Below, one piece after another: positions 1 through 19,800 of a stretch of DNA of 41,223 bases. The position numbers and the translations under genes were made by a program. The notes below the pieces were generated by a model. It had not been told where the DNA came from, ran no database searches, and was given only the letters and a program-made list of their open reading frames with translations. Each line of letters starts with the position of its first letter. Position 1 is the first letter of the stretch. Origin of the DNA: Cytophagia bacterium CHB2 (GTDB taxonomy: Bacteria; Zhuqueibacterota; Zhuqueibacteria; Zhuqueibacterales; Zhuqueibacteraceae); assembly GCA_030263535.1 (NCBI GenBank), contig SZPB01000010.1, positions 1-41,223 on the forward strand. Reading direction: 5' to 3'.

Positions 1-32
1 GTGGTTTCATAAAGAAAAAACGCCAAATGACC

Positions 33-148
33 ATAATCATGCCATCCCTTCGAGATTCTCGGTTCGGAAAATCCCGAAGGGATGAAATGGTTATAGAAAG
101 ATAGCCAAAAAGAACAGGGTAAAACCCTGAAGAGTGAAATATTTACCG
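33..148. repeat. Palindrome with a second related unit
   Basis: The arm at 33-52 (core CATCCCTTCG) is the near reverse complement of 75-94 (core CGAAGGGATG). A second, diverged copy of the right-hand unit follows at about 124-148. Both units share the pattern CCC-GAAG-(G/A)-(G/A)-TGAAAT followed by TTA. The layout is that of an interspersed palindromic (REP-like) repeat. Similar CCCTGAAGGG-TGAAAT strings are, from memory, common intergenic repeats in FCB-group genomes; this was not checked here. Confidence 0.5.
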
Positions 149-203
149 CACGAACTTTTGGCAATTGTACCCATCAGAGCTGAATAATTTTCCCATGTTT
201 CAA

Positions 204-260
204 ACCACGAATAAACGCGAATTTGAAAGATATTGGCGCGCATTCGCGTGAATTAGCGGT
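204..260. repeat. Imperfect inverted repeat
   Basis: The segment 204-222 (ACCACGAATAAACGCGAAT) is largely the reverse complement of 242-260 (ATTCGCGTGAATTAGCGGT), with about 19 bp between the arms. No coding potential. A related string (CCACGGAT-CGGCACGGATAA) follows at about 304-325, which suggests a dispersed repeat family rather than a regulatory site. Confidence 0.4.
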
Positions 261-572
261 GCAGGAAATGGGGCGGGAGAGTTTAATCACAAGTATTTTA
301 GTGGCCACGGATCGGCACGGATAAACTGAGATATGAATTATTCATAAAGCTGAATATTTTATTGTTCGTGCAAACGCCTTCCAGGAATTATGCAAAAAAG
401 CGCACGCTTTGCCGAAAAAAACGTGTGGATGGCAGAGATGAAAATGTTTATTTAAGTCTTTAATTTAATGAACTAATGCACGATAAGTCAGCCGTTATTT
501 TAGCGAAAATTTACAGTGGCATAATTTATGTTAAGTCAAAAGCACTTACCAGGAGAATAAATTTGCCGCCTT

Positions 573-612
573 CTCAGGCTGGCAATCGCGAAGGAAATTG
601 CTCAGCCCTGAG
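573..612. other. Hairpin in non-coding region
   Basis: The arms CTCAGGCTGGCAAT (573-586) and ATTGCTCAGCCCTGAG (597-612) are complementary apart from two single-base bulges, around a 10-base loop. There is no T-tract after it and no gene next to it, so its role is unknown; a structured RNA or another repeat remnant are both possible. Confidence 0.35.
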
Positions 613-806
613 CTCGCAGGATGTGACAGTTACTTGATCGTTAAGTACCTCAACTTCATTTTCAAAGTCAGGTAGTCAGCGGTTAGGACCATAACTCCCG
701 ACGGATCGCCAAAAATCAAGCGTCGGCTGTTGATGCGCCCAGTTCTGCGAAATGAGAAACGTATACTATCGTTCCGCCAATTTCAATTTTTGCATTCGGC
801 ATCCCG

Positions 807-855
807 TAGCCCTCGGCTAATGGCTTACGCTATTAGTTCGAGGGCTATTTTTTTT
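807..855 (+). terminator. Strong hairpin with T8 tract
   Basis: TAGCCCTCG (807-815) pairs with CGAGGGCTA (839-847). An inner CTAAT/ATTAG pair extends the stem, and eight T residues follow at 848-855. This is the textbook form of an intrinsic terminator on the + strand. No gene is visible just upstream, so it would end either a transcript entering from outside the window or an unrecognised small RNA. Confidence 0.55.
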
Positions 856-885
856 CTGGTCGCTCATCGCTTGTGGCTTAGAACC

Positions 886-1010
886 AATACCGTTCACTTG
901 GCATTTCTTTCGTAGTTCCGGCCCCTTGCGGGCCGATGCTAATGCAAATAATTTCAATCTTTCTACAGTGCCCCACAAGCGGGCAGGACTACTAACTAAG
1001 TGAACGGATT
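886..1010. repeat. MITE-like palindromic element, copy 1
   Basis: About 125 bp bounded by inverted ends AATACCGTTCACTT and AAGTGAACGGATT. Inside, the left arm GTAGTTCCGGCCCCTTG is nearly complementary to the right-arm segment around 970-992, so the element can fold into one long hairpin. A second copy with the same organisation lies at 8841-8961. No open reading frame is contained. No clear target-site duplication is visible. Confidence 0.7.
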
Positions 1011-1031
1011 GGGCGCAAGACTGAAACGAGC

Positions 1032-1052
1032 AACCAGAAACCAGAAACCAGA
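1032..1052. repeat. 7-bp tandem repeat (AACCAGA)x3
   Basis: Three perfect head-to-tail copies of AACCAGA lie about 40 bp upstream of the ribosome binding site of the TonB receptor gene. Such a tract could be prone to slippage. It lies outside the coding sequence, so any effect would be on promoter or leader length. Confidence 0.6.
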
Positions 1053-1104
1053 AAACAAGCAATCATATCCCATCTACTAACCATCATTTTGGAGGAGGTA
1101 GAGT

Positions 1105-4100
1105 ATGCATCGTAGGTTAATGTTTGTTCTCGCCTCGCTGCTCCTGCTGCCGTGCTTCCTGTTCGCGCAAGACGGTAAAGTGCGTGGCCGGGTAACGGCG
1201 AAGGAATCAGGAGAGGCCTTGATCGGCGCAAACGTCGTGCTCGACGGAACGACGCTGGGCGCCGCGGCGGACATCAACGGTGACTTCGTCATCCTGAGCG
1301 TGCCGCCAGGCGTGTACACCGTGCGGGCAACCTATATTGGTTACCAGACGGTCGGTATCGCCAATGTGCGTGTCAGCGCCAATCTGACTACCACGCAAGA
1401 TTTCCAATTGCCCAGCTCGGCCATCGCCGTGGAAGCAATGGAGATCATCGCGGAACGGCCGTTGATTCAGCGCAACACCACCAACACGGTGCGCCTGACC
1501 ACCGCGGAAGATATTGAAAATCTGCCGGTTCGCGGTGTGCAGAACATTTTGGCATTGAATGCCGGTACCGTGCTCCAAGATGGCGAGTTGCACGTGCGCG
1601 GCAGCCGCGCCAACGAAGTGGCCTACTACGTTGACGGCGCCACCGCCACCAACCCCTATTCCAACGAAGAAAACATCACCGTTATCGACGAGGCCATTGA
1701 AGAGCTGCAATTGCAGTCCGGCGGCTTCACGGCTGAGTTGGGCGGCGCCAATTCCGCGGTCGTGCGCACCACGGTGAAAACCGGCGGCTCGAGCTTCAAA
1801 GCCACGGTCAACTACCTCACCGATGATTTCGCCAAAGCCGGCGAAGAGTTTTTGGGCACCACCTCCCGCGGTTTCCGCAATGCCGCGGTGACCTTGAGCG
1901 GCCCGCTGCTCGGCTCCAAAACCCGCTTCTTCCTGGCCGGCCAGCATAACTACTTCCGCAATCGTACTCCCATCTTCATCGAACCCTTCAACACAAATAA
2001 CTTTGTTGATCCTGCAACCGGCCAAACGCTGGCAGAGTTGGGTGGTTTGACGGATGATGGTCTTGAAGGTCGAGTAGCCGGCTCCCCGCTGCCTGCCCCG
2101 ATTGCCTTCAAGAAGAACTTCCTGCCGAACAATCAGTTGCGTGACAACTCGCTCAACGGCACGTTGGTTTACGATATGTCCAGCGCATTAAAGTTCCGTT
2201 TAACTGGAACTTACGGCTATAATCGCCGGCCGCTGGGTTACAATACCTTCAACAATGCGCTGAACAATATTTTCTGGCAGCGTGAACAGCGCCGTGAAAT
2301 CAAGACCGGCATGGTGGCGTTGAAGGGCACGCATGTGCTGAACCCCAAAACCTTCTATGAAGTCAACGTCAGCTATTCCGCCCGCAACAGTCGCGACTTT
2401 GATCCGGATTTCGGCGATGAGTGGACGAAATATGGTGACGTGAGAGAATGGGCTGCCGCCGGCCTGGACACCTCGAACTGGGGTCGCAACAACACGACCC
2501 GGCAACTCAATGTGTTTCAAGGTCCCTATCTGCACAGCACAATCTTGAATTTCGAAGTGAGAGCGGCTAATGGCACGGTTAACACCTATGCCAAAGATGA
2601 ACAACAGAGCCTGGGCGCTGCTTTGGATTTTACCAGCCAGGTCACCAAGAATTTTGAATTGAAGTTTGGTGGACGCGCTGATCGTTGGACCATGCGCGCC
2701 TATTCGGTTAATGATATTCGCGGTTACATGGACTTTTTGTACGGCATCGATGGCACCACCAATCGTTCGTTTACGGATGACTACGTCCGGCGCGTCGAGC
2801 TTTCCAAGGCCGGCAATATCCAAACCTATGGTTTTGATATCGATGGCGTGAATAAATCGGACAGCGGTATCAATGGCCCGCGCAATCCGCTTTTCGCCTC
2901 GGCTTATGTCCAATCGAAACTCGAATATCGCGATCTTATCATCAACTTGGGCGTGCGTTACGAGCGCCTGGATGCCAAGGTTTTGCAGCCGGATAATGTC
3001 TCCAATCCGACCTACGACAAAACGAATCTCTGGATTGACGAAAATTCGGTGATTGAAACCGAGGCTAACGACTATCTGTTGCCGCGCATCAACTTTGCTT
3101 TCCCGGTAACTGATCGCACCGTGTTCTACGCGCAATACGGCAAGTATGTGCAAATGCCGAACTTGAACGATCTGTATCGTGGCGGCATCAGAACCTTGAG
3201 CCGCGACGTCATCCCGGAAACGCGCTCTTTGTACGGCTTCTTCGGCCAATATGTCGGTTTCACCGCCCAGCCCGAGCGCACCGAGCAGTATGAGTTGGGC
3301 ATTCGCCAATCGTTGACCGACAACTTTGCGTTGACGATCACGACTTTCTACAAAGACATGCAAGACCTGCTCCGCTTGGACCGCGTGGTGGCTGACGGCA
3401 CCGGCGCACAAGCGGCCGGCACCCCGATTATCGCTGGCTGGATCAACAACGACTTCGCCACCTCCAAAGGTCTGGAGTTGACGTTGGAATTGCGCCGCAC
3501 CAAGCGTTTGGCGGCGAAGGTCAGCCATACCATTTCCGACACGCGCGGCACCGGCTCGGATTCGCGTTCGACCCGCGTTTCGGTGAGCGACGCCACCCTG
3601 GCGACGTATCCCACGTTGATCTACCGCTTGAACTACAATCAAACCCATCGCGGCACGATGTCGATCGACTATCGTTTTGCGCAAAATGATGGCGGCCCGA
3701 TTCTCCAGGGCGTTGGCATCAGCGCATTGGTCAACTATAACAGCGGCCATAACTACACCAAGATCCTCGAACCCCAGGTTCTGGGCCAGGCCAATCCCTG
3801 GAACGTTGGTGTGCGCGCCACGATCGATCCCCGCACGCGTAATCCGGTTGAACCGGTCAACAGCTCCAGCACGCCGTGGAACGCCAATGTTGACTTGACG
3901 CTTGACAAAGTCGTTGGTCTCGGCAAAGTCAATGCGCGTTTCTACGCCAACATCCTCAACCTGTTCAACACCAAGAGCATCATCAACGTGTATGAAACCA
4001 CCGGCACCTCCAACGATGACGGTTGGTTGAAGAGCGCGTTGGCCGGCCAGTATGTGGCGACGCCCTATTACAGCGATTTCTACAAAGCCATCAACCTCGA

Positions 4101-4191
4101 CAACCGTTGGGGTTACTTCCTGGCTACCGGCGACGATATTTTCGGCTCGCCGCGCGAGTTTCGCCTGGGCTTGATGTTGGAGTTCTTCTAA
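1105..4191 (+). CDS. TonB-dependent outer-membrane receptor with carboxypeptidase-regulatory N-domain
   Basis: The 1028-residue product should be an outer-membrane beta-barrel that imports, or is energised by, a TonB-coupled ligand. Residues 1-22 form a signal peptide ending in FAQ. Residues ~25-110 are a CarboxypepD_reg-like beta-sandwich (GKVRGRVTAKESGEALIGA, then NGDF and PGVYTVR). Residues ~115-230 look like the plug domain (NLPVRGVQNIL, VRGSRANEVAYYVDG), and the rest is barrel ending in a terminal Phe (LMLEFF). A GGAGGAGG Shine-Dalgarno at 1091-1098 supports the ATG. It is the first gene of an operon with a T9SS-type cargo protein and a PorV-like protein. SusC-like architecture is clear, but the ligand cannot be told and no SusD is adjacent. 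Confidence 0.9.
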   Translation: MHRRLMFVLASLLLLPCFLFAQDGKVRGRVTAKESGEALIGANVVLDGTTLGAAADINGDFVILSVPPGVYTVRATYIGYQTVGIANVRVSANLTTTQDFQLPSSAIAVEAMEIIAERPLIQRNTTNTVRLTTAEDIENLPVRGVQNILALNAGTVLQDGELHVRGSRANEVAYYVDGATATNPYSNEENITVIDEAIEELQLQSGGFTAELGGANSAVVRTTVKTGGSSFKATVNYLTDDFAKAGEEFLGTTSRGFRNAAVTLSGPLLGSKTRFFLAGQHNYFRNRTPIFIEPFNTNNFVDPATGQTLAELGGLTDDGLEGRVAGSPLPAPIAFKKNFLPNNQLRDNSLNGTLVYDMSSALKFRLTGTYGYNRRPLGYNTFNNALNNIFWQREQRREIKTGMVALKGTHVLNPKTFYEVNVSYSARNSRDFDPDFGDEWTKYGDVREWAAAGLDTSNWGRNNTTRQLNVFQGPYLHSTILNFEVRAANGTVNTYAKDEQQSLGAALDFTSQVTKNFELKFGGRADRWTMRAYSVNDIRGYMDFLYGIDGTTNRSFTDDYVRRVELSKAGNIQTYGFDIDGVNKSDSGINGPRNPLFASAYVQSKLEYRDLIINLGVRYERLDAKVLQPDNVSNPTYDKTNLWIDENSVIETEANDYLLPRINFAFPVTDRTVFYAQYGKYVQMPNLNDLYRGGIRTLSRDVIPETRSLYGFFGQYVGFTAQPERTEQYELGIRQSLTDNFALTITTFYKDMQDLLRLDRVVADGTGAQAAGTPIIAGWINNDFATSKGLELTLELRRTKRLAAKVSHTISDTRGTGSDSRSTRVSVSDATLATYPTLIYRLNYNQTHRGTMSIDYRFAQNDGGPILQGVGISALVNYNSGHNYTKILEPQVLGQANPWNVGVRATIDPRTRNPVEPVNSSSTPWNANVDLTLDKVVGLGKVNARFYANILNLFNTKSIINVYETTGTSNDDGWLKSALAGQYVATPYYSDFYKAINLDNRWGYFLATGDDIFGSPREFRLGLMLEFF

Positions 4192-4263
4192 AATTTCCGA
4201 ACGGCCGGTCGCGCATGCGGCCGGCCGGTAAAGAATTTGAACCAAATCTCGGAGCTATATACG

Positions 4264-7200
4264 ATGAAGAAATTTTCCCTTACCTTGTGGACGTTTCTCG
4301 CCCTGGTGCTGGTTGGGACACTGGCCCTGGCCGAGCGCCCGGCGCATGAGAAAGGCAAGGGCGAGCGCTCGTTGGCAAAAACTGCCTATGAGCCGGATCG
4401 CTATCAAATCTTGAATATCAATAACTTGTGGTCATGGCACCGCCGTGACGGCCAAGCCAACCACTCCCCCCTCGGTGATAATGGTACCTTCTTTCCGCGC
4501 GGCACGGCTTGGTCGATTTACCAAGACGGTATGGTGTTCGGCTCGCGCGCATATGTCGATGCAGCCAAAACTGTTTCCGCACCGTTCTCCCAGAACATTC
4601 GCGTCGGCGGCACAACTTACGCCACCGGGCAGCGTGAAGGCTGGGTGATTGGCCAGGGCGCAACCGCAGTTCCGGTTGACCCGGCTGACCCGCGCGCGCG
4701 CATCTATCGTATTCGCCGCGACTGGACCACAGCGTTCTACAATGCCAACGGCAGTTTCTCCGATGAAGCCAGGCGCGACGCGGCAGAATCCAATGAAATC
4801 GGCGTCTCCTCTGTGACCAATGCTCAGGTGCAAGCCATCGTCGATCGCTATTTGAAGGATTGGAACGAATGGCCGGTGGATTTGGGCGCGCCCTACGTCG
4901 AAAGAAACGGCCAGCCCGGCTATCAAGCTCCGCCGCCGTTCAGCGCAACTTTCACCTCGGCAGAATTGATCTCCGGCAATTATGACGAGCCTGGCGTTGC
5001 CGGCTCTGACCCCAATTCGCCGGCAGACCAAGTGTTGTGGTGCGTGTTCAATGATCTGAACAAATCCACCTCCGTTGGCCGTTTCGGTTCTGAGCCTACC
5101 GGTTTGGAAATCCAAATGACGATGTGGGGCTACAAACGTTCAGACGCGCTCGGCAATATCTTCTTCCGTAAATGGCGTTTCATCAACAAAGGCGGTGTTG
5201 AGATTGATGCCGCCGGCAGCAAAGGCGCTTTTTATCTCGACAGTATGTACGTTTGCCAATGGTCCGATCCGGACTTGGGCAACGCCGGCGACGATTTGCT
5301 CGGCTGCGATACCACGCTCAGCATGGGCTTTGTCTACAACGCCAATGCGCTTGACTCTGAGTATCGTCGCTTCAACCTGGCCCCGCCTGCAGCCGGTTAT
5401 GACTTCTTGCAGGGCCCGATCGTCGAATCCCCCGGCGACCGCGCGGTTTTTGATTTGAAGTACAAAGACGGCTACAGAAATCTGGGTATGTCGGGTTTTT
5501 CGTATTTCTCTGCTGGCAGCCCCTATACCGATCCAGGTGGAGGTTACGGCACAAACACCATTCGCTGGTACAAGATGTTGCGCGGCTATGCTCCGCTGGA
5601 TGGCCCGGATGTACGTTATGCCCATCCTCCGGGCGTCGAGGCCGGACCATTCCCGCTGGCGGGCAACCCGGTAACGGGTAACGGCCATGTTGATGGTCAA
5701 GGCTTCAACTACTCCTTTGTTTCCGGCGACCGCCGCTTGCTGGTCATCACCGGTCCGTTCAGCATGGCCCCGGGCGACACGCAGGAAGTTGTGGTGGCGC
5801 ATGTTGCCGGTTTGGGTTCTGACCGTCTCTCCAGCGTTTCGGTTATGAAGTTTAATGACCGCTTCGCGCAAAATACCTATGATGCCTTGTTCCAAGTGCC
5901 GAGGTCACCGGCGCCGCCGGATGTGCAGGTCACGGAACTCAACGGCGAAATCATCCTGGAATGGGGCAGCAACCTCAACCGGGTGAACAGCACCGAAAAC
6001 ACCGTCAACGAGCCGGGTAACTTCAAATTTGAAGGCTACAACATTTATCAGTTGCCCAGCCCGACTTCTCGTTTGTCTGAAGGTGTTCGTATTGCCACCT
6101 TCGATTTGCCCTCGGATCCCGCCGTTGTCTTGGGTGAAGATTTCGATGCGCGCTCCGGGCAGATTCTCGAGCAAGCGCTGCAATTCGGTTCGAACAGCGG
6201 CATCCGCCGTTATTTCCGCCTCTCCCGCGATTATGTCAAGGATGTTGACAAGCTGAATAACGGTGAAGAGTATTATTTTGCGGTTACCTCCTACAGCGTT
6301 TCCACGATTCCGGGCTATCTGCCGGCGGCATTGGAATCGGATGTCCAGGTTCGTATTGCCCGGCCGAAAGTACCTTTTGGAACGAAGTATAAAACCTCGT
6401 TTGGCGACACGTTGCAAGTTGCCCACACCAGCACCGGCAGCTCGATCAGTGATGGTCGCGTCTACCCAATTGTGATTGATCCTCGCGTCAGCAACGGCAA
6501 AACCTATGAAGTCAGATTCGCAACGGATGCGCAAGGCGCGACGGTGTGGAGTCTGCAAGAAAAGGGTGGCGCCGTGGTCATGGGCAATCAGAGCAACCAA
6601 AGCGGAGACACGAACTACAATATCGTCAACGGTCTCTTCTTGGTGGTTTCTGGTCCGCCTCCGGGCTTGAAAGAGTGGAGTTGGACGCCGGCCGCGTCTC
6701 GCTTCTTGACCTGGGTCGGTGGTGAGTTTGGGTTTGAAGGCTTCAACGGCACGATCGGCTATGCTTCGCCGCGTTCGGTTTTTGGCGACGGTACCCTGTT
6801 TGTCTCTGCCGATCAAACCAAAAACATCGAAATCCGCTTTGCCAACGTGAATGCGGCAGACGCCAGCTTTGATCCCAATCATCCCAATGTTTCGTATGCG
6901 TATCGCCATGGCCGCGGCTTTGGCTCCGCACCAGCGAGACCGGAGTTCGCGCCATTCATCATCAATACTGGCGGCAGCTATTCGTATCAAGATTTTACCA
7001 AGAGCGTGCCGCTGGCGGTTTATGATATTGAAAACCCGGCTGCGCCGCGACGTTTGGCGGTTGCTTTCCTGGAAAACAACGCCGCTAACGGCTCTGTCGA
7101 CGGCAAATACTGGCCGCCGTTGATCAATACGGTCAGCAATACCGCTGCAGACGGCCCGCGTGAATGGCTGTGGATCATGGATGCAGATTATAGCGAAACA

Positions 7201-7725
7201 CCGAATCCGGCGTATCAAGCTGAGATTATTGGCGGACCCCAGCCGGTGATGTACTATGCTACCTGGGTACGCCGCAGCACGGCGAACTGGACGGACACCA
7301 ATGTGTTCACGCACATCTCCAACAAGCCCAACACTCCGGCTGACGTGTTCACGTTCACTTTGCCGGCGCCGGATGCTTCTCAAGATCTTGCGTTAGCGAG
7401 TGCGAAGACCATCGGCGTTTTCCCGAATCCGTATTATGCCTTCAACCCGCAGGAAACCAGCCGGTTGTCGCGTTTCGTCACGTTCAACAACTTGCCGCCG
7501 AATTCGCCGGTAACGATCCGGATTTTCAACCTGGCCGGCCAGTTGGTGAACCGCATCGAGAAAAACGACGCCAGCCAGTTTGCCCGCTGGAATCTGTTGA
7601 ACTTTAGCAATCTCCCGGTTGCCAGCGGTATGTACATCGCGCATATCGAAATACCGGAACTCGGCCACGCGCAAGTGCTCAAATTGGCGGTTATCCAAGA
7701 AGCCGAAGTCTTGGAAAACTTCTAA
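4264..7725 (+). CDS. Large secreted protein with C-terminal T9SS-type sorting domain
   Basis: A 1153-residue exported protein. I start it at the ATG at 4264, which gives the signal peptide MKKFSLTLWTFLALVLVGTL with cleavage near ALA and has a GGAG motif 9 bp upstream; a TTG nine codons earlier lacks these. The body has no catalytic motif I recognise. It carries fibronectin-like stretches (residues ~545-690: PPDVQVTELNGEIILEW, GYNIYQLP, YYFAVTSYS). The last ~85 residues (VFPNPYYAFNP, VTIRIFNLAGQLVNRIE, SGMYIAHIE) match the FlgD/Por-secretion-tail fold that directs T9SS cargo. Its position between a TonB receptor and a PorV-like protein suggests a surface or secreted partner of that receptor. 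Homologues are usually annotated hypothetical. Confidence 0.75.
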   Translation: MKKFSLTLWTFLALVLVGTLALAERPAHEKGKGERSLAKTAYEPDRYQILNINNLWSWHRRDGQANHSPLGDNGTFFPRGTAWSIYQDGMVFGSRAYVDAAKTVSAPFSQNIRVGGTTYATGQREGWVIGQGATAVPVDPADPRARIYRIRRDWTTAFYNANGSFSDEARRDAAESNEIGVSSVTNAQVQAIVDRYLKDWNEWPVDLGAPYVERNGQPGYQAPPPFSATFTSAELISGNYDEPGVAGSDPNSPADQVLWCVFNDLNKSTSVGRFGSEPTGLEIQMTMWGYKRSDALGNIFFRKWRFINKGGVEIDAAGSKGAFYLDSMYVCQWSDPDLGNAGDDLLGCDTTLSMGFVYNANALDSEYRRFNLAPPAAGYDFLQGPIVESPGDRAVFDLKYKDGYRNLGMSGFSYFSAGSPYTDPGGGYGTNTIRWYKMLRGYAPLDGPDVRYAHPPGVEAGPFPLAGNPVTGNGHVDGQGFNYSFVSGDRRLLVITGPFSMAPGDTQEVVVAHVAGLGSDRLSSVSVMKFNDRFAQNTYDALFQVPRSPAPPDVQVTELNGEIILEWGSNLNRVNSTENTVNEPGNFKFEGYNIYQLPSPTSRLSEGVRIATFDLPSDPAVVLGEDFDARSGQILEQALQFGSNSGIRRYFRLSRDYVKDVDKLNNGEEYYFAVTSYSVSTIPGYLPAALESDVQVRIARPKVPFGTKYKTSFGDTLQVAHTSTGSSISDGRVYPIVIDPRVSNGKTYEVRFATDAQGATVWSLQEKGGAVVMGNQSNQSGDTNYNIVNGLFLVVSGPPPGLKEWSWTPAASRFLTWVGGEFGFEGFNGTIGYASPRSVFGDGTLFVSADQTKNIEIRFANVNAADASFDPNHPNVSYAYRHGRGFGSAPARPEFAPFIINTGGSYSYQDFTKSVPLAVYDIENPAAPRRLAVAFLENNAANGSVDGKYWPPLINTVSNTAADGPREWLWIMDADYSETPNPAYQAEIIGGPQPVMYYATWVRRSTANWTDTNVFTHISNKPNTPADVFTFTLPAPDASQDLALASAKTIGVFPNPYYAFNPQETSRLSRFVTFNNLPPNSPVTIRIFNLAGQLVNRIEKNDASQFARWNLLNFSNLPVASGMYIAHIEIPELGHAQVLKLAVIQEAEVLENF

Positions 7726-7774
7726 GCTAACTTGATCATTTGACCACGGTAACCCTGAACAAGGAGAAAAAGTC

Positions 7775-8836
7775 ATGACGAATAAACGTCTGCTTTCATT
7801 TTTAACGGTTTGTTTGGCGCTGGCTGCCCTCGCCGGCAGCTTGCTCGCCCAAACGCCGGATGTCCAGAACAAGCGCATTGGCACCGCGGCGGCCCCCGAG
7901 TTATTGATTCCGGTCGGCGCGCGTGACTTGGCTATGGGCGGTTCCAGCATCGGAACCACCTCCGGCATCGATGCATTGCATTACAATCCGGCCGGCCTTG
8001 GCCGCCTCACCGGCGCTGCTGAAGGCACGGTCAGCCACATGTCGTATATCGCTGATATCAATGTCAATTACGGCGCTGTCGGTATCAATTTCGGCGGTTT
8101 TGGCACCGTCGGTCTCAGCATCAAAGCGCTGGATTTCGGCGAGATTCCGATGACCACCACCGACGACCCGGAAGGCGTTGCGGGCAGAACTTTCAATCCC
8201 TCTTTTGTCACGTTGGGATTCAGCTATGCACGCGCGTTCACCGATGCCATCACTGCTGGTGGTACGGTAAAGTTGATCTCCGAAAACTTGCATCGCGTCT
8301 CGGGTAAAGGCATTGCCATGGATTTTGGCGTGCAATACCGCGGCGTGGCCGGCTTCAACGGCGTGAACCTCGGCGTCGCGTTGAAGAACGTCGGTCCGCA
8401 AGTCAGTTTTGACGGCCCGGGCTTGCTCCGCCTCGCGGATGTCGCTGACGGCCTGCGCCCCACCCAGTATTACAGCTCGGAAGCGGCGAGTTGGGAATTG
8501 CCCACCTCCGTCGAAATCGGCTTTGCCTATGAAAACAAGTTCGCGGAAAATGTCTCCTACTCCCTGAACACCACGTATGCTAACAACAACTTGGCGCTTG
8601 ACGGCTATCGTTTTGGCGGCGAGTTGGGCTATTCGATGGAAAACCTGAAGTTGGCGGGCCGCGCCGGCTACGAGCTTTCCGACAAGGGCCCGACGGATGA
8701 ACAAATCTTTGGACCGACGTTGGGTTTTGGTTTGACCTACATCACCGAAGGCTTGGACATCACTGTCGATTATGCTTATCGCTCGGTCGATCTCTTCAAC
8801 AGCAACAACGTGTTCTCGTTGAAGCTCGGCTTCTAA
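7775..8836 (+). CDS. PorV/PorQ-family outer-membrane protein
   Basis: A 353-residue protein with a signal peptide (residues 1-25, ending LLAQ) and an AAGGAG motif at 7761-7766, 8 bp before the ATG. The N-terminal pattern PVGARDLAMGGSSIG followed by ALHYNPAGLG is the hallmark of the PorV/PorQ (UPF0164-like) barrel family. The remainder alternates short Gly/aromatic beta-strands and ends with FSLKLGF. In Bacteroidota, PorV is the outer-membrane shuttle that brings T9SS cargo to the attachment complex. Here it directly follows a cargo-like gene, which suggests a dedicated export partner, but true PorV cannot be told from the paralogues by reading alone. Confidence 0.8.
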   Translation: MTNKRLLSFLTVCLALAALAGSLLAQTPDVQNKRIGTAAAPELLIPVGARDLAMGGSSIGTTSGIDALHYNPAGLGRLTGAAEGTVSHMSYIADINVNYGAVGINFGGFGTVGLSIKALDFGEIPMTTTDDPEGVAGRTFNPSFVTLGFSYARAFTDAITAGGTVKLISENLHRVSGKGIAMDFGVQYRGVAGFNGVNLGVALKNVGPQVSFDGPGLLRLADVADGLRPTQYYSSEAASWELPTSVEIGFAYENKFAENVSYSLNTTYANNNLALDGYRFGGELGYSMENLKLAGRAGYELSDKGPTDEQIFGPTLGFGLTYITEGLDITVDYAYRSVDLFNSNNVFSLKLGF

Positions 8837-8840
8837 GCTT

Positions 8841-8961
8841 AATACCGTTCACTTAGCATTTTGTTCGTAGTCCCGGCCCCTTGTGGGCCGATGCCAAAGC
8901 AAAAAATTTCAATCTTCCAACAGTGCCCCACAAGGGGCAGGACTACTAAGTGAACGGTATT
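8841..8961. repeat. MITE-like palindromic element, copy 2
   Basis: About 121 bp, with perfect inverted ends AATACCGTTCACTTAG and CTAAGTGAACGGTATT. Next to them GTAGTCC pairs with GGACTAC, then CCCCTTGTGGG pairs with CCCCACAAGGGG. The left arm carries an extra ~10 bases (CATTTTGTTC) that would bulge out. It matches copy 1 (886-1010) over nearly its full length and starts only 4 bp after the stop codon of the PorV-like gene, so it may also act as that operon's 3' hairpin. Confidence 0.75.
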
Positions 8962-9011
8962 TGTATTGTTTCTATGCCGGCATTCGACTGACATTGGTTA
9001 TCCTGTTTTCA

Positions 9012-9044
9012 GAAAGGCTGCTCGCTCGCGGGCAGCCTTTCGTT
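9012..9044 (+). terminator. Intrinsic terminator after the PorV operon
   Basis: GAAAGGCTGC (9012-9021) and GCAGCCTTTC (9032-9041) form a perfect 10-bp stem with a 10-base loop, followed by GTTTGT. This is a probable rho-independent terminator for the three-gene outer-membrane operon. Confidence 0.65.
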
Positions 9045-9256
9045 TGTAGATGGGTTTTGGTGGCGGGTGTTTGCTGCACGCATTTACCCGCGCTCTCTTT
9101 TGGGAAGAGAAGGGGGACGGGAGGTTGCCTTGTTTTTTATGCAACAGCCAAGCCTCGCAGGAACATTATCAGAAAATGCGCGTTTTGGGATGGGCAAGTT
9201 ATGATTATTCGAATCTGGACTACCTGAATTTTGCGCGTTGTTTGCGTCCACCCCCG

Positions 9257-9341
9257 CCTGCGATTGAAATCGCAGGTTAAGAAGCGCAAGTCGTCTGAAG
9301 CCGACTGTCACCCGATGGGTGGGAGTCGCATTTATGCGACT
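9257..9341. repeat. Cluster of four short hairpins
   Basis: Four consecutive small palindromes: CCTGCGAT/ATCGCAGG (9257-9276), AGTCG/CGACT (9289-9306), CACCC/GGGTG (9309-9321) and AGTCGCA/TGCGACT (9324-9341). Arms of the second and fourth are related, so alternative pairing is possible. The array lies about 70 bp upstream of the next gene and looks like an intergenic REP-type repeat. Confidence 0.5.
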
Positions 9342-9411
9342 TTGAGCAGGTGAAAATCTGTGAATAATTCAGGCTAACGTTATTTCCACAATCCGCAATC
9401 ATCAATCCGCA

Positions 9412-11769
9412 ATGAAAACACCTTTTCGATCGTTACGTTCGCTTTTGGGGATCAGCGCTGTTCTCCTAACCATCATTTTTGCATCCTGCCAGAAGCGTCC
9501 GGCGACGCAGAATTATTTCCCTGAAAACGGGCCGCAAGCGCTGCATCAAATTTCGCTGGATTTGCAAAACGGTGTGCGCGTGTTGTCTCTCGCTCTGCGC
9601 CCGGGTTATGAAGATTTGGCGGCCCTAGCCTATCTTCGTCTCGCCGAGGGCGCGACGATCGCTAGCGCTTATGTCAGCAATGGCGAGGCCGGCGAAAGTG
9701 ATCTCGGGACACCCTATCCGGATCAGCTTGCCGGCGCGCTGCGCTTGGAAGCCGATGCCGCGCTGGCTTATCTCAACGGCGAGGCGCACTTTCTTAGCCA
9801 GCCGGAGGTCGTGGCCGCGCGCGATTCTCTGGCGGTGCGGAGATCCTGGCGCAGCGACTCGTTGAGCGCCCGCCTGGCCGGCCTTCTGCTCAAATATAAA
9901 CCGGACATCATTCTGGTGGCGCGCGATTGGGCTGCGCCTGAGCAAAGCTGGCAAACGAAAGTTTTGCTTTCGGATTTGCTGAACGCCGTGCAAAAAATTC
10001 AGCCCAAGCCAACTAACGGCAGCGCGGTCGCCATAAATTCTGATTCTCTCTGGCAGGTTGGTCGCATTTGGGTGGATGATCCCGCCAAGTCCGGCGTGCG
10101 CGTGCCGGTGGATGACAAGCATCCGGAATGGAAGAAGAGCTTTAAAGCGATTGCTGACGAAGCCGGCGCGAAATATGCCTCGTTGCGCTATCAGCGTAAA
10201 GCCTGGCAGGGAACGCAGCAGCCTTCTTACACGCTGCTCCATCCGCAAACCGGCGCCACCCTGCAAACACTGACGGAAAACTATCCTGATTTTACCAGCT
10301 TCCGCTATTTGCGCAGCATGGCCGGACGAATGACGCAACTGGCATCAGCGGCGCGGGAAAAATCGAGAAAAGAGCTTGGACCGGCGCTGTTGACTGCGAT
10401 CGATTCGGTGAGCATTCATATCACATTTCGAAACAGGTTGAGCAGCCAGGAAGAGCGCATGCTCTACGCCTGGAAAATGAACCTCGACCGGCTGCGGAAT
10501 AACCTGCTCAACGTCAACGTGGATTATACCATCGCCGACACCGCGTTGACCGTGGTGCAAGTTACCAGTCTTACGATCAAAAACGTTACCGGCCTTTCGG
10601 AAATTGGCGACACCTCCATAAACTTCAGCGCACTGCCTGAAAATTGGGCCGTGAATGAATCTCTGGAACGGCGCTTTGCTTACAAGCCCGGCGAGATTTT
10701 CACCCTGCTCTCGCCGCAAAGCCTGCCGTTCAACACTCCACAAAATCTTTTTGGCTTGCAGGCGCCGCAAGCGTCGCATAAAATCACTTTTCACGTGGTG
10801 CATCGCAGCTCCAACCGCGAGCAGAGTTTCATCAAGACCATCAATCAACGCATGTATTACGCCCCGCGTTTTCTTGTCGAGGTGTTGACGCCGATTGTGC
10901 GCGCGATTCCGGGCGAGAAAATCGAATTGCGCATGAAGAATTACTCGCGCGACGGCGTCGCCGACACCATTGGCGTGTCGCATGAGGCGGTAACCTCGAG
11001 CCCCGGCCTTTTCCGTTTGAGTTTCAAGGAGGCCGAGCAATACCTGACGCTTTATCTGGATTGGCCGCAGGAAGTGGAGGAGGGCACGCATATTTTTCCG
11101 GTTACGATCGACGGCGATGAAGTTGCCCAGTTTGCCGCCCGGCAGTTTCGCGCGGAGATTGACCGCAATCGCCGTATCGGCATTTTCACTCCGGCCAATA
11201 ACACCTTGTTGAAAGACGCCTTGCGCCGCCTGACGGTAAGAAGCGCCAATCTTGTGGTCAACCCGGAACGCATACAACAAATGGATTCGCTGGACGTCAT
11301 TATAGTAGACCGTCGCGCCTTGACATTGGAAACGCGCTTCCGAGACAAGAAAGCCTCACTTCAGGCGTTTGCCGAGAAGGGGGGACATGTGATCATCCTT
11401 GCGCAAGACCCTGAGTCGTGGAACCGCGCGCCGCTGTGGGACGGTTTGCAATTAGCGGCCACGCAACAGTTCGATGAGAGTTTCCCGCTGCAAAATGACG
11501 AGCAACATCCGGTGCTCAATTCGCCCAATCGCCTGACAGCGCAAGATTGGGAGGGCTGGCTTTACCGGCGCGGTTACAATTTCGTCTCGCTTGGCCAAAA
11601 AGACGGCGTTGAAATGCCTGTGACAGCGGCGGGACAGGGAACGCCGCTGTTGCTGACGCGCAAGCTCGGCCAGGGCAAAATGACGTATGTTGATTTGGCC
11701 CTGACCCCGCAGTGGCTGAATGTGCAGCCTGGCGCTTACCGCTTGCTGGCAAATTTGATTTCGTATTAA
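9412..11769 (+). CDS. Lipoprotein with degenerate PIG-L deacetylase-like and GATase1-like domains
   Basis: A 785-residue probable lipoprotein; the N-terminal hydrophobic segment ends FASC with Cys26 as lipidation site. Residues ~50-190 follow the order of PIG-L/LmbE N-acetylglucosaminyl deacetylases: VRVLSLALRPGYED sits where the family has AHPDDED, then ASAYVSNGEAGES (family TxGEGG) and KPDIILVARDW (family RPDVI). The long middle and the C-terminus (residues ~590-785, RRIGIFTPANN, DVIIVDRRAL, KGGHVIILAQ) resemble the GATase1-like end of large Bacteroidetes PIG-L proteins. The zinc-binding His-Pro-Asp-Asp is replaced by Arg63-Pro-Gly-Tyr66, so catalysis is doubtful. No Shine-Dalgarno is seen; the ATG overlaps the second copy of a direct repeat AATCCGCAAT (9390-9399, 9404-9413). 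Family assignment is by recalled motif order. Confidence 0.55.
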   Translation: MKTPFRSLRSLLGISAVLLTIIFASCQKRPATQNYFPENGPQALHQISLDLQNGVRVLSLALRPGYEDLAALAYLRLAEGATIASAYVSNGEAGESDLGTPYPDQLAGALRLEADAALAYLNGEAHFLSQPEVVAARDSLAVRRSWRSDSLSARLAGLLLKYKPDIILVARDWAAPEQSWQTKVLLSDLLNAVQKIQPKPTNGSAVAINSDSLWQVGRIWVDDPAKSGVRVPVDDKHPEWKKSFKAIADEAGAKYASLRYQRKAWQGTQQPSYTLLHPQTGATLQTLTENYPDFTSFRYLRSMAGRMTQLASAAREKSRKELGPALLTAIDSVSIHITFRNRLSSQEERMLYAWKMNLDRLRNNLLNVNVDYTIADTALTVVQVTSLTIKNVTGLSEIGDTSINFSALPENWAVNESLERRFAYKPGEIFTLLSPQSLPFNTPQNLFGLQAPQASHKITFHVVHRSSNREQSFIKTINQRMYYAPRFLVEVLTPIVRAIPGEKIELRMKNYSRDGVADTIGVSHEAVTSSPGLFRLSFKEAEQYLTLYLDWPQEVEEGTHIFPVTIDGDEVAQFAARQFRAEIDRNRRIGIFTPANNTLLKDALRRLTVRSANLVVNPERIQQMDSLDVIIVDRRALTLETRFRDKKASLQAFAEKGGHVIILAQDPESWNRAPLWDGLQLAATQQFDESFPLQNDEQHPVLNSPNRLTAQDWEGWLYRRGYNFVSLGQKDGVEMPVTAAGQGTPLLLTRKLGQGKMTYVDLALTPQWLNVQPGAYRLLANLISY

Positions 11770-16869: not shown

Positions 16870-19800
16870 ATGAAATTTTACGCCGACCTGCATTTGCATT
16901 CTCACTATTCTCGCGCAACGAGCAAACAGCTTAATCTCGAATATCTCAGTCAATGGGCGCAATTCAAAGGCATCACCGTGGTCGGCACCGGAGATTTTGT
17001 GCATCCCGGCTGGCTGAATGAATTGCGTGAAAAACTCGAGCCTGCCGAACCCGGCCTCTTTCGACTTAAAAATGAATATCGCATCAAAACGCAGGCGGCA
17101 GTTCCCCACGCCTGTGTTGCCGAAGTGCGTTTTATGCTCACCGCAGAGATTTCCAACATCTACAAACGTCTCGATAAAGTCCGCAAAATTCACAACGTCG
17201 TTTTTGCGCCGAGTTTCGAAGCGGCTCTGAAGATCCAGGCCAAGCTTGAAACCATTGGCAACATTCGTTCCGACGGCCGCCCGATTCTCGGTTTGGATTC
17301 GCGCGATCTTCTTGAAATCGTTTTGCACTCTGATCCCTTGGCGTTTTTGATTCCCGCGCATATCTGGACGCCCTGGTTTGCCGTGCTCGGTTCCAAAGGC
17401 GGTTTTGATTCCATTGATGATTGCTTTGCTGATCTCACGCCGCATATTTTCGCGGTCGAGACCGGGCTTTCTTCCGACCCCACGATGAATTGGCGTCTCA
17501 AACAACTTGACCGTTTTGTTTTGATTTCAAATTCGGATGCGCATTCACCGCCGAAACTCGCGCGCGAAGCAAATTTGTTTGATACCGAGCTTTCTTATCC
17601 CGCGATGTATCGCGCCTGGGAAGATTATGATGACAAGGGTTTTCTTGGCACCATTGAATTCTTTCCGGAGGAAGGCAAGTATCATTACGACGGCCATCGC
17701 GCCTGCCGTATGCGTTTGCATCCGCGCGAAACCGCAGAGCATGAAGGCAATTGTCCGGTGTGCGGCAAACCCGTGACGGTTGGCGTCATGGCGCGTGTGG
17801 AAGCATTGGCAGACCGGCCCGAGGGCGAGAAATCCCCGCGCTGGCGGCCTTACACCAATCTCATCCCGCTGCCGGAAGTCATTGCTGAGGCGCATGGCAA
17901 GAAAGCCGGAACCAAAAACGTCGATCAAGTTTTTATGCGCATGCTCAAACAACTCGGCAACGAGCTTTATATCTTGCAGGATGCCTCGATTGAGGATATC
18001 ACGAAGAACGCAGGCCCGGTCGTTGCTGAAGGGATTCGCCGCATGCGCAGCGGCGAAGTCAAAATCGCTGCCGGCTATGACGGCGAATATGGCACGATTC
18101 ATCTCTTCACGCCGGAAGAACGCAAAGATTTTCTGCGGCAAACCAGCCTCGTGGAAACGGAGTTAGAAGCGACTTTGGATGAAACGGAATCAAAAAATGG
18201 CGGCATCACGCGAGGCGCCAAGCAAAGTCAAGCCGGCTCGCGCGAGCCTGAGCAGAGCGTCGTTGAATCTACTGCCCCGACTTTTGATAGCCTGAATCCT
18301 TCGCAGCGCAAAGCTGTCGTGCACGAACATGGCCATTTGATCATCGTCGCTGGCCCGGGAACTGGCAAAACGCATACGCTCGTGCATCGCGCCATTCATT
18401 TGGTGCAGTCCGGCGAGCGGCCGGAGAGTATGCTTGCCATCACATTTACGAATAAGGCTGCTGAAGAAATGCGCCAACGCTTGCATGATCGGTTGCAAGA
18501 AATGGCCGTGCTCATCGAAGTTGGAACGTTTCATGCGTTTTGCCTTGCTTTGTTGCGCCGGTACGGCGGCGATCAAGCAGATTTCGAAATCATAAATGAC
18601 GCACAAAAAAAAGAAATGGTGAAAGAGCTGTGGCCGGAAGTGACCACAGCAGAACGATCCGCTTGGGTGGAAGAAATATCCTATCAAAAGGCAATTCTAT
18701 CTCCACTCACCTCGGAAAAACATGCAGCAAAGCGTCAACGTTACGATGAAGCATTACGCCGGCAAAGATTTTGGGATTTCGATGATCTATTGTTGCAAGC
18801 AATCCAATTGCTGGAAAACAATGCTGCGATTCAACATGAATTACATCAGCGGTTAGCCTGGATTTTTGTTGATGAATATCAAGATCTCAATCCAGCACAG
18901 CATCGCCTGCTGAAACTGTTGGTACATGCCGATGCCCGTTTGACCGCAATCGGCGATCCCAATCAAGCGATCTACGGCTTTCGCGGTTCGGAAACGGGAT
19001 ATTTTAACCGCTTCACGCAAGATTTTCCCGGCGCTGTGATGCTGCGTTTGGAAGAGAACTATCGCTCCGGCGCGAATATTCTTTCGGCTTCCGGCCAGGT
19101 CATTGCCGCAGGTGAGCAAAGTGCGGCGCTGCCGCTTTTGCCTGCTTCGCTGCTCGCCGGTAATGTCACGATCTATGCGGCGCCCACCGAGCATGCCGAG
19201 GCGGAATACCTCGTTCATCAAATTGAAAAACTGGTGGGTGGCACGAGCATGTTCTCGCAAGATTCGGGACGGGTGGAACACGAGCGCGAAGGAAAGTTCA
19301 GCTTTGGCGACTTTGCCATTCTGTATCGATTGAATGCGATGCGGGGGCCGCTGGAGGAGGCGCTGCAACGTTCCGGCATGCCGTATCAAATTTCGAGTGA
19401 AACGCCTTTGGCGCAGCGTGATGGCGTTCCGGAGTTGCTGGGGCTTATTCGTCTGGCCGCGGGTTTCTATCTCGAGCCACGGCATTTAGCGGATTATTTG
19501 ATGCTCGCAACACCCGGCTTTGGCGAAAGCACGGCTAAAACCGCCGCAAGCTTTTTTGCAACATTGCCGCAGCTTCGAGTCGAGTCGATTGCACAGTTTA
19601 TTGATCGGCAAAATCTACAGGTGAAGCAGGGAGAAGCGCTGCAACGAACCTTGGCTGCAATTGAAATTTTCAAAAGGGATTTGAATGAACACGGGCTGGT
19701 GCGTGCATTAGAGAATTTCTTGGCAAGTGACCACGTTCGAGCAACCGTTGCATCGAAACAGAAATGCTGGGAGAATTGGGGCAGAATTGTGAATCTCTCG

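Follow-up and report, generated by a model that had tools for sequence, protein, structure and literature searches.

REPINs are doublets of repetitive extragenic palindromic (REP) sequences that are associated with REP-associated tyrosine transposases (RAYTs). In the available text of the papers that define them (PMC3116915, PMC2817692), a REP has a GTAG head on a GC-rich imperfect palindrome, the inverted doublet spans about 80 nt, and the RAYT gene is itself bracketed by such REPs. REP abundance is strongly correlated with the presence of a cognate RAYT (PMC2817692), and REPs without a RAYT are known from many E. coli strains in which REPtrons are deleted (PMC3733652). Within the IS4 family of insertion sequences (IS), subgroup IS4 has the terminal consensus -AATR--------WTW and direct repeats of 10-13 bp (PMC2266710, Table 1), and strong target specificity is reported for some of its elements (PMC2266710). 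Both kinds of mobile DNA meet in two palindromic elements, A1 and A2, of a 41,223-nucleotide stretch of contig SZPB01000010.1 from Cytophagia bacterium CHB2 (the window). The host is a member of candidate division KSB1, which is not among the phyla that the available text of PMC3733652 names for GTAG repeats, and its genome (G000) comprises 6.98 Mb in 681 contigs.

GTAG units of Pseudomonas putida and P. fluorescens form many-copy fusions with unrelated stem-loops and inverted repeats (PMC3733652, Figure 8B). Two of these fusions flank RAYT genes, and the available text describes no DDE-type ends or duplications for them, whereas one frame in G000 is linked to an IS4 element with duplications. 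BrickBuilt, a miniature inverted-repeat transposable element (MITE) of Porphyromonas gingivalis, also carries another repeat as cargo, but according to the available text of PMC4596501 this cargo is a 23-nt minisatellite and not a REPIN. REPINs, RAYTs, IS4 elements, MITEs and the Pseudomonas GTAG/stem-loop fusions are already known. The literature searches made here retrieved no IS4-type MITE that has duplications, a fixed YTAR target and a REPIN as its cargo. They found no title or abstract on a REPIN inside a DDE-type MITE, a weak negative in that subscription journals were mostly uncovered.

A1 and A2 are best explained as independent, old insertions of one composite miniature transposon family that bracket an operon by chance, with a probability of roughly 0.88. 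The original prediction described a pair of palindromic elements, each about 120 bp long and with common ends, some 8 kb apart, and considered a non-autonomous transposon family, a cassette boundary that moved the operon, or paired RNA hairpins. Both elements are present as IS4-type MITEs with a REPIN inside: A1 at 886-1010 (+), 5′ of a receptor gene, and A2 at 8841-8961 (+), with the porV stop codon 4 nt before it. They are 88-89% identical, share their ends, and form the longest direct repeat of window positions 1-9600 (97 nt, 89%, spacing 7955). The terminal inverted repeats lie at 886-900 (+) and 998-1011 (-) in A1, and at 8841-8855 (+) and 8947-8961 (-) in A2. The end sequence AATACCGTTCACTT is exact at 886-899 (+), 8841-8854 (+) and 8948-8961 (-) and has three mismatches at 998-1011 (-), the degraded right end of A1, where comparison by eye with A2 as reference reveals four extra bases and one base lost. 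The REPIN of A1 occupies 912-992 (GTAG..CTAC, 81 nt), and that of A2 occupies 8867-8946 (GTAG..CTAC, 80 nt), with a REP at 8867-8887 (+) and an inverted REP at 8926-8946 (-).

The 16-nt terminal arms of A2 are 100% complementary. The predicted RNA fold reaches -55.7 kcal/mol (z -9.2) for A2 and -45.9 kcal/mol (z -5.3) for A1, with 0 of 200 shuffles as good in either case. As to the idea of paired RNA hairpins, each element is a strong hairpin, but nothing was found that links the two functionally. A known Rfam RNA family was rejected as the identity of the hairpins, as the whole window has no Rfam match at gathering score.

The outer layer belongs to an IS4-type family. The transposase with matching ends that was sought exists, in broken form, within a 3107-bp IS at C408:1467-4573 of G000 (locus L058), which has perfect copies of the A1/A2 end sequence at both ends. 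It encodes an N-terminal piece of an IS4 transposase (PF13006, E 1e-19; NF033592, 124 bits at a cut-off of 115), and the gene is interrupted by a nested second IS4-family element at L058 2354-3807. This nested element contains a DUF4372 transposase and has the terminal inverted repeat CACTGCTGTCCGGTT and a 9-bp duplication, ACCGCTTAT. As in the IS4-family MITEs of subgroup IS4, to the extent that the available text of PMC2266710 covers them, the CAATACCGTTCACTTA ends fit the subgroup consensus position by position, the duplications are of about 10 bp, and an IS with identical ends is present. Unlike those MITEs, the elements here have a REPIN as their interior, with no visible IS remnant, and a strict YTAR target at a fixed offset.

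Target duplications of 9-11 bp (score at least 6) flank 11 of 16 full-length copies and 3 of 240 mismatched flank pairs (Fisher 2e-13). The test covers copies with both ends readable, including the IS and a copy with another interior at C56, and leaves out C98 (contig end), C232 (half element), C218 (remnant) and lone end matches. The copies without a duplication are A1, A2, C211, C196 and the IS itself. Since the duplications lie outside the IS4 ends, even where a further hairpin is nested (C23, C35), the IS4-framed composite moves as one unit. YTAR stands exactly 8 bases before AATACC in 14/14 main-type copies, A1, A2 and the IS included, against a background of 0.56% per position, and in 0/2 copies of the 1b subtype. 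It reads TTAG at 878-881 (+) before A1 and CTAA at 8833-8836 (+) before A2, where the TAA at 8834-8836 is the porV stop codon. Because A1 and A2 lack duplications of their own, their insertion is argued from this left-hand YTAR and from the other copies. By raw count, a distance of 4 nt separates 4/16 full-length copies, A2 included, from the stop codon of a neighboring open reading frame. The ends, the duplications and the IS with matching ends together bear out the proposal of a non-autonomous transposon family. A degenerate IS4-type frame around a REPIN, with CTAG at -8 from AATACC by eye, is also found in a sister species (G001:C21 near 17088-17156, L304), and from this locus the REPIN/IS4-frame composite may predate the species split.

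The interior of A1 and A2 is a second, independent mobile hairpin, the REPIN, which goes beyond the original prediction. Its core consists of GTAG-TCC-CGGCCC-CTTGT-GGGCCG and an inverted partner, and its span from GTAG to CTAC is about 80 nt. The REP pattern, scanned with up to 3 mismatches in G000 and up to 2 in other genomes, has 129 matches in G000, whereas the reversed control has 1. Positions are available for about 100 of these matches, and the 25 unpaired REPs, many at contig ends, stand outside the REPIN counts. Inverted REP pairs number 54 in G000, or 57 with a looser pattern.

RAYTs that pair with this REP are found in relatives. Three proteins of G005 and G006 match REP_Tyr_transpos (NF047646) at 94.6-96.9 bits with a cut-off of 80, and the RAYT gene is bracketed by this kind of REP at 4/4 loci read, in G005, G006 (two loci) and G007, as in described REPIN/RAYT systems. 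The REPs at the G006 RAYT locus C401 have up to 3 mismatches, and the G007 RAYT is 59% identical with diverged REPs. A search of G000 and G001-G004, which are draft assemblies, found no close RAYT at E<=1e-10; KSB J3, a close assembly (G060), was outside this search. A 30% identical RAYT-like protein of G000 (C93) was rejected as the source of the REPINs, with no REP found beside its gene. Tyrosine transposases of the same genome were likewise rejected, as the 8 Y1 stretches read are without such REPs, bar weak 3-mismatch matches at C354.

At least four different inverted-repeat frames enclose REPINs of the A1/A2 kind. In G000, 35/57 REPINs lie between two arms of the same frame, compared with 0/2660 for shuffled flanks; this location inside the frames of other elements, with no cognate RAYT found, differs from REPIN/RAYT systems as the available text of PMC3116915 and PMC2817692 presents them. 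The framed REPINs comprise 11 in IS4-type frames (type 1, subtype 1b included), 16 between TTACAGCGTTTTT-type arms, 7 between CTAGTGCACTGTTAC-type arms, and 1 in a fourth type; among the other REPINs, 11 have one recognizable arm and 11 have none. A motif-free test in G000 gives complementary flanks for 29/54 REPINs versus 0/53 for flanks 200 bases further out. The frames also hold other interiors, at C56 with IS4 ends and at C159, C477 and C487 with the third type. In G000, frames of about 150 bp with CTAGTGCACTGTTACCTTAA arms at C159, C477, C487, C205 and C77 (L274-L277, L282) contain a hairpin, GTCATCC...CTTGTGAAG, that replaces the REPIN. At G000:C94:14928-15228 (L063), a type-2 frame encloses a tandem array of the REPIN with a 72-bp period, and another REPIN lies close by.

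A GCGAAT-type hairpin can share the IS4 frame with the REPIN. At C23, TTA flanks it on either side and it separates the left end from the ACATTTCGTTC spacer, whereas at C35, G060:C575 and C744 it adjoins the REPIN on the opposite side and is followed by GTG, TTA or TTC. The frames at C477, C211, C24 and C12 are without it. The link to a transposase exists for the IS4 frame only; no autonomous element was seen for frame types 2, 3 and 4, and no such arms surround a Y1 gene in the loci scanned. A pattern search of the examined loci found no clean empty MITEs of frame types 1, 1b, 2 or 3, and its type-3 matches are chance or other interiors.

In the proposed mechanism, an IS4-subgroup DDE transposase acting in trans would move the outer frame CAATACCGTTCACTTA ... 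TAAGTGAACGGTATTG, inserting it at NNNYTARNNN and duplicating about 10 bp. The inner cargo, an inverted pair of GTAG-headed REP hairpins, belongs to the system of a RAYT, a single-strand HUH transposase, and was most likely captured when a REPIN or a precursor hairpin came to sit inside the MITE. After capture, the composite would be copied as a single unit by the IS4 transposase. Because YTAR contains TAA or TAG, the transposase could land at stop codons without gene damage, and such a landing would leave a coding region followed immediately by a strong hairpin, as porV is by A2. By analogy with REPs elsewhere, it is plausible that A2 affects the operon mRNA at its 3′ end.

Several observations weigh against this explanation. 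The transposase of the sole IS with matching ends is broken, and its YREK motif reads YREE when the pieces are inspected by eye. No related transposase was found in KSB J3, G001-G003, G005 or G006, and the match in G004 is only 31% identical; with the enzyme broken in G000 and no good match in seven other genomes, present mobility of the family is unsupported. The 9-11-bp duplications are at the lower edge of the published range, and A1 (6/10) and A2 (5/9) keep none. No cargo-free type-1 copy occurs among the listed ends or examined loci, so that REPIN entry is presumed, and C56 holds a different hairpin in place of the REPIN.

A broader and more tentative proposal, to which slightly less than even odds are given, is transposase switching. 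The KSB1 lineage of the window would have lost its RAYT, and the orphan REPINs would have persisted and spread inside the frames of unrelated transposons, at least three besides the IS4 type. Mobile elements would thereby exchange hairpin modules as cargo, and REPINs would outlive their own enzyme. The share of framed REPINs is in line with this proposal: 43/81 are framed on both sides in G000 and G001, where no RAYT was found, versus 8/43 in G005 and G006, which have a RAYT (Fisher p 2e-4), in a comparison of two genomes with two from partial samples. Motif-free arms occur at 37/78 REPINs of G000 and G001 (offset controls 0/77) versus 6/42 of G005 and G006 (controls 1/38). The samples consist of fetched REP regions (20 from G001, 20 from G006, 15 from G005, 5 from G004) plus loci from other searches, and because G000 and its genus supplied most of the frame motifs, the comparison is biased in their favor. 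G004 is also without a RAYT match and has 0/7 REPINs framed by motif and 0/6 by the motif-free score, which counts against transposase switching. The motif-free arm score of G003 is 0/2.

The family is dispersed through the genome and is not confined to the operon. A2 as a BLAST query has 48 matches in G000, among which a few places count twice; about 15 places have matching ends, and the remaining matches cover mainly the inner core of 80-odd bases. When the 16 full-length copies are placed at random on the genome, treated as one circle with genes ignored, the closest pair is at most 7955 bases apart in 24% of trials. Given a dispersed family and so frequent a close pair, the bracketing of the operon by A1 and A2 is most likely coincidence. 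The copies lie, in substance, between genes and without relation to the operon, which is the outcome that the original prediction had equated with coincidence.

KSB J3 is 98.8% identical over 8003 bp spanning most of the operon and A2, and A1 is present there too. In a scan of one genome per species, from which the records of the window's own genome were possibly left out, an exact 20-base end-plus-core pattern matched only KSB J3, of candidate division KSB1, at 4 stretches. The IS4-framed copy at G060:C289 (L390) has about 82 more bases than its counterpart at G000:C211 (L003) between the REPIN CTAC and the right IS4 end, a difference due to insertion or deletion at the border of the REPIN. 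The KSB J3 assembly also has two loci, G060:C388 (L379) and G060:C399 (L381), at which the operon-end hairpin is followed by two different sequences, one with a GCGAAT-type hairpin, an apparent strain variation.

The frames could instead have grown around resident REPINs, which would have acquired their ends later or exchanged them by recombination between cores, an explanation with perhaps one chance in four. A REPIN in G006 (C327 near 81867, L326) combines, as judged by eye, an arm of type 4 on the left with one of type 3 on the right, and may be a recombinant between two framed elements; one G006 REPIN was scored as one-arm 3/4 by the frame motifs. Relative to the REPIN, the GCGAAT-type hairpin is on one side in C23 and on the other in C35, an arrangement that core flipping could explain too, and degenerated GTAG units adjoined to unrelated stem-loops appear in the available text of Di Nocera et al. 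(PMC3733652). Conversely, the same ends surround quite different interiors at C56, C159, C477 and C487, and the GCGAAT-type hairpin inside the type-1 frame, between two TTA at C23 and G060:C575, indicates that hairpins do enter frames. Recombination alone would yield mainly mixed arms, at odds with the majority of G000 REPINs, whose two arms belong to one frame.

The operon between A1 and A2 has the three genes originally described, all outside the elements: a TonB-dependent receptor gene at 1105-4191 (+), a gene for a large protein with a type IX secretion system (T9SS) type A sorting tail at 4264-7725 (+), and a PorV/PorQ-family gene at 7775-8836 (+). The T9SS tail is over the NCBIfam cut-off and under the Pfam cut-off. 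A terminator-like operon-end hairpin lies at 9012-9041 (+), so that A2 stands between the porV stop and this hairpin; a simple terminator scan did not report it. The operon, which the cassette idea had raised as possibly absent from near neighbors, is present and syntenic in 5/5 relatives with 10.5-11-kb loci read, at 55-70% amino-acid identity; those five loci yielded neither a REP nor an IS4-type (type-1) end. In 6/6 relatives read, the porV stop is followed by a similar operon-end hairpin without an element between them. The 1.5-kb flanks of the porV paralogues at C244 and C20 contain no REP or type-1 end (C69 and C70 were unread). An unframed REPIN at G000:C30:27337-27417 is about 90 bp from the 5′ end of the porV paralogue C30:26265-27248. 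More palindromic repeats lie upstream of A1, at window positions 33-94 and about 208-280, with a 28-nt pair that is 82% complementary and, by eye, a GCGAAT-type sequence. Downstream of A2, positions 9222-9343 hold another dispersed repeat with many matches in KSB J3 (C564, C698, C693, C590, C227).

Retention of the hairpins as functional parts of the operon, with A2 as a 3′-end mRNA stabilizer or attenuator and A1 as a regulatory leader or insulator, is improbable at some one chance in five. It would fit the strong folds, the position of A2 ahead of the operon-end hairpin, the retention of both elements in KSB J3, the unframed REPIN near the C30 paralogue, and the frequent location of REPs directly behind genes reported in the available text of PMC3733652. 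It is opposed by the lack of REPs and type-1 ends at the orthologous operons of the five relatives and at the paralogues C244 and C20, by the lack of an Rfam match, and by the dispersal of the family; two assemblies as close as G000 and KSB J3 cannot tell selection from recent ancestry. The least probable explanation, that A1 and A2 are the ends of one composite transposon or cassette that carried the operon, could account for their common family and orientation 8 kb apart and for their missing individual duplications, but it is rejected with near certainty because the operon is syntenic in the five relatives read, at whose loci no REP or type-1 end was found, no duplication is common to the outer flanks (best 9-mer 6/9), each element has its own left YTAR, the two have diverged by 11-12%, and their spacing is expected by chance (P about 0.24).

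Population models of REPINs lead to extinction or runaway unless each copy benefits the host, according to the available text of PMC8049555, and a REPIN carried as cargo of a DDE-type MITE, if true, would be another route to persistence. The YTAR rule offers a simple reason for a MITE directly behind a stop codon, where the 3′ end of an mRNA could be shaped. Candidate division KSB1 provides a natural comparison of genomes with and without a RAYT, and if the contrast in framing holds in more of them, mobile hairpins can outlive their own enzyme on other transposons. The nested design is unusual, and it suggests a way in which mobile hairpins could survive without an enzyme of their own.

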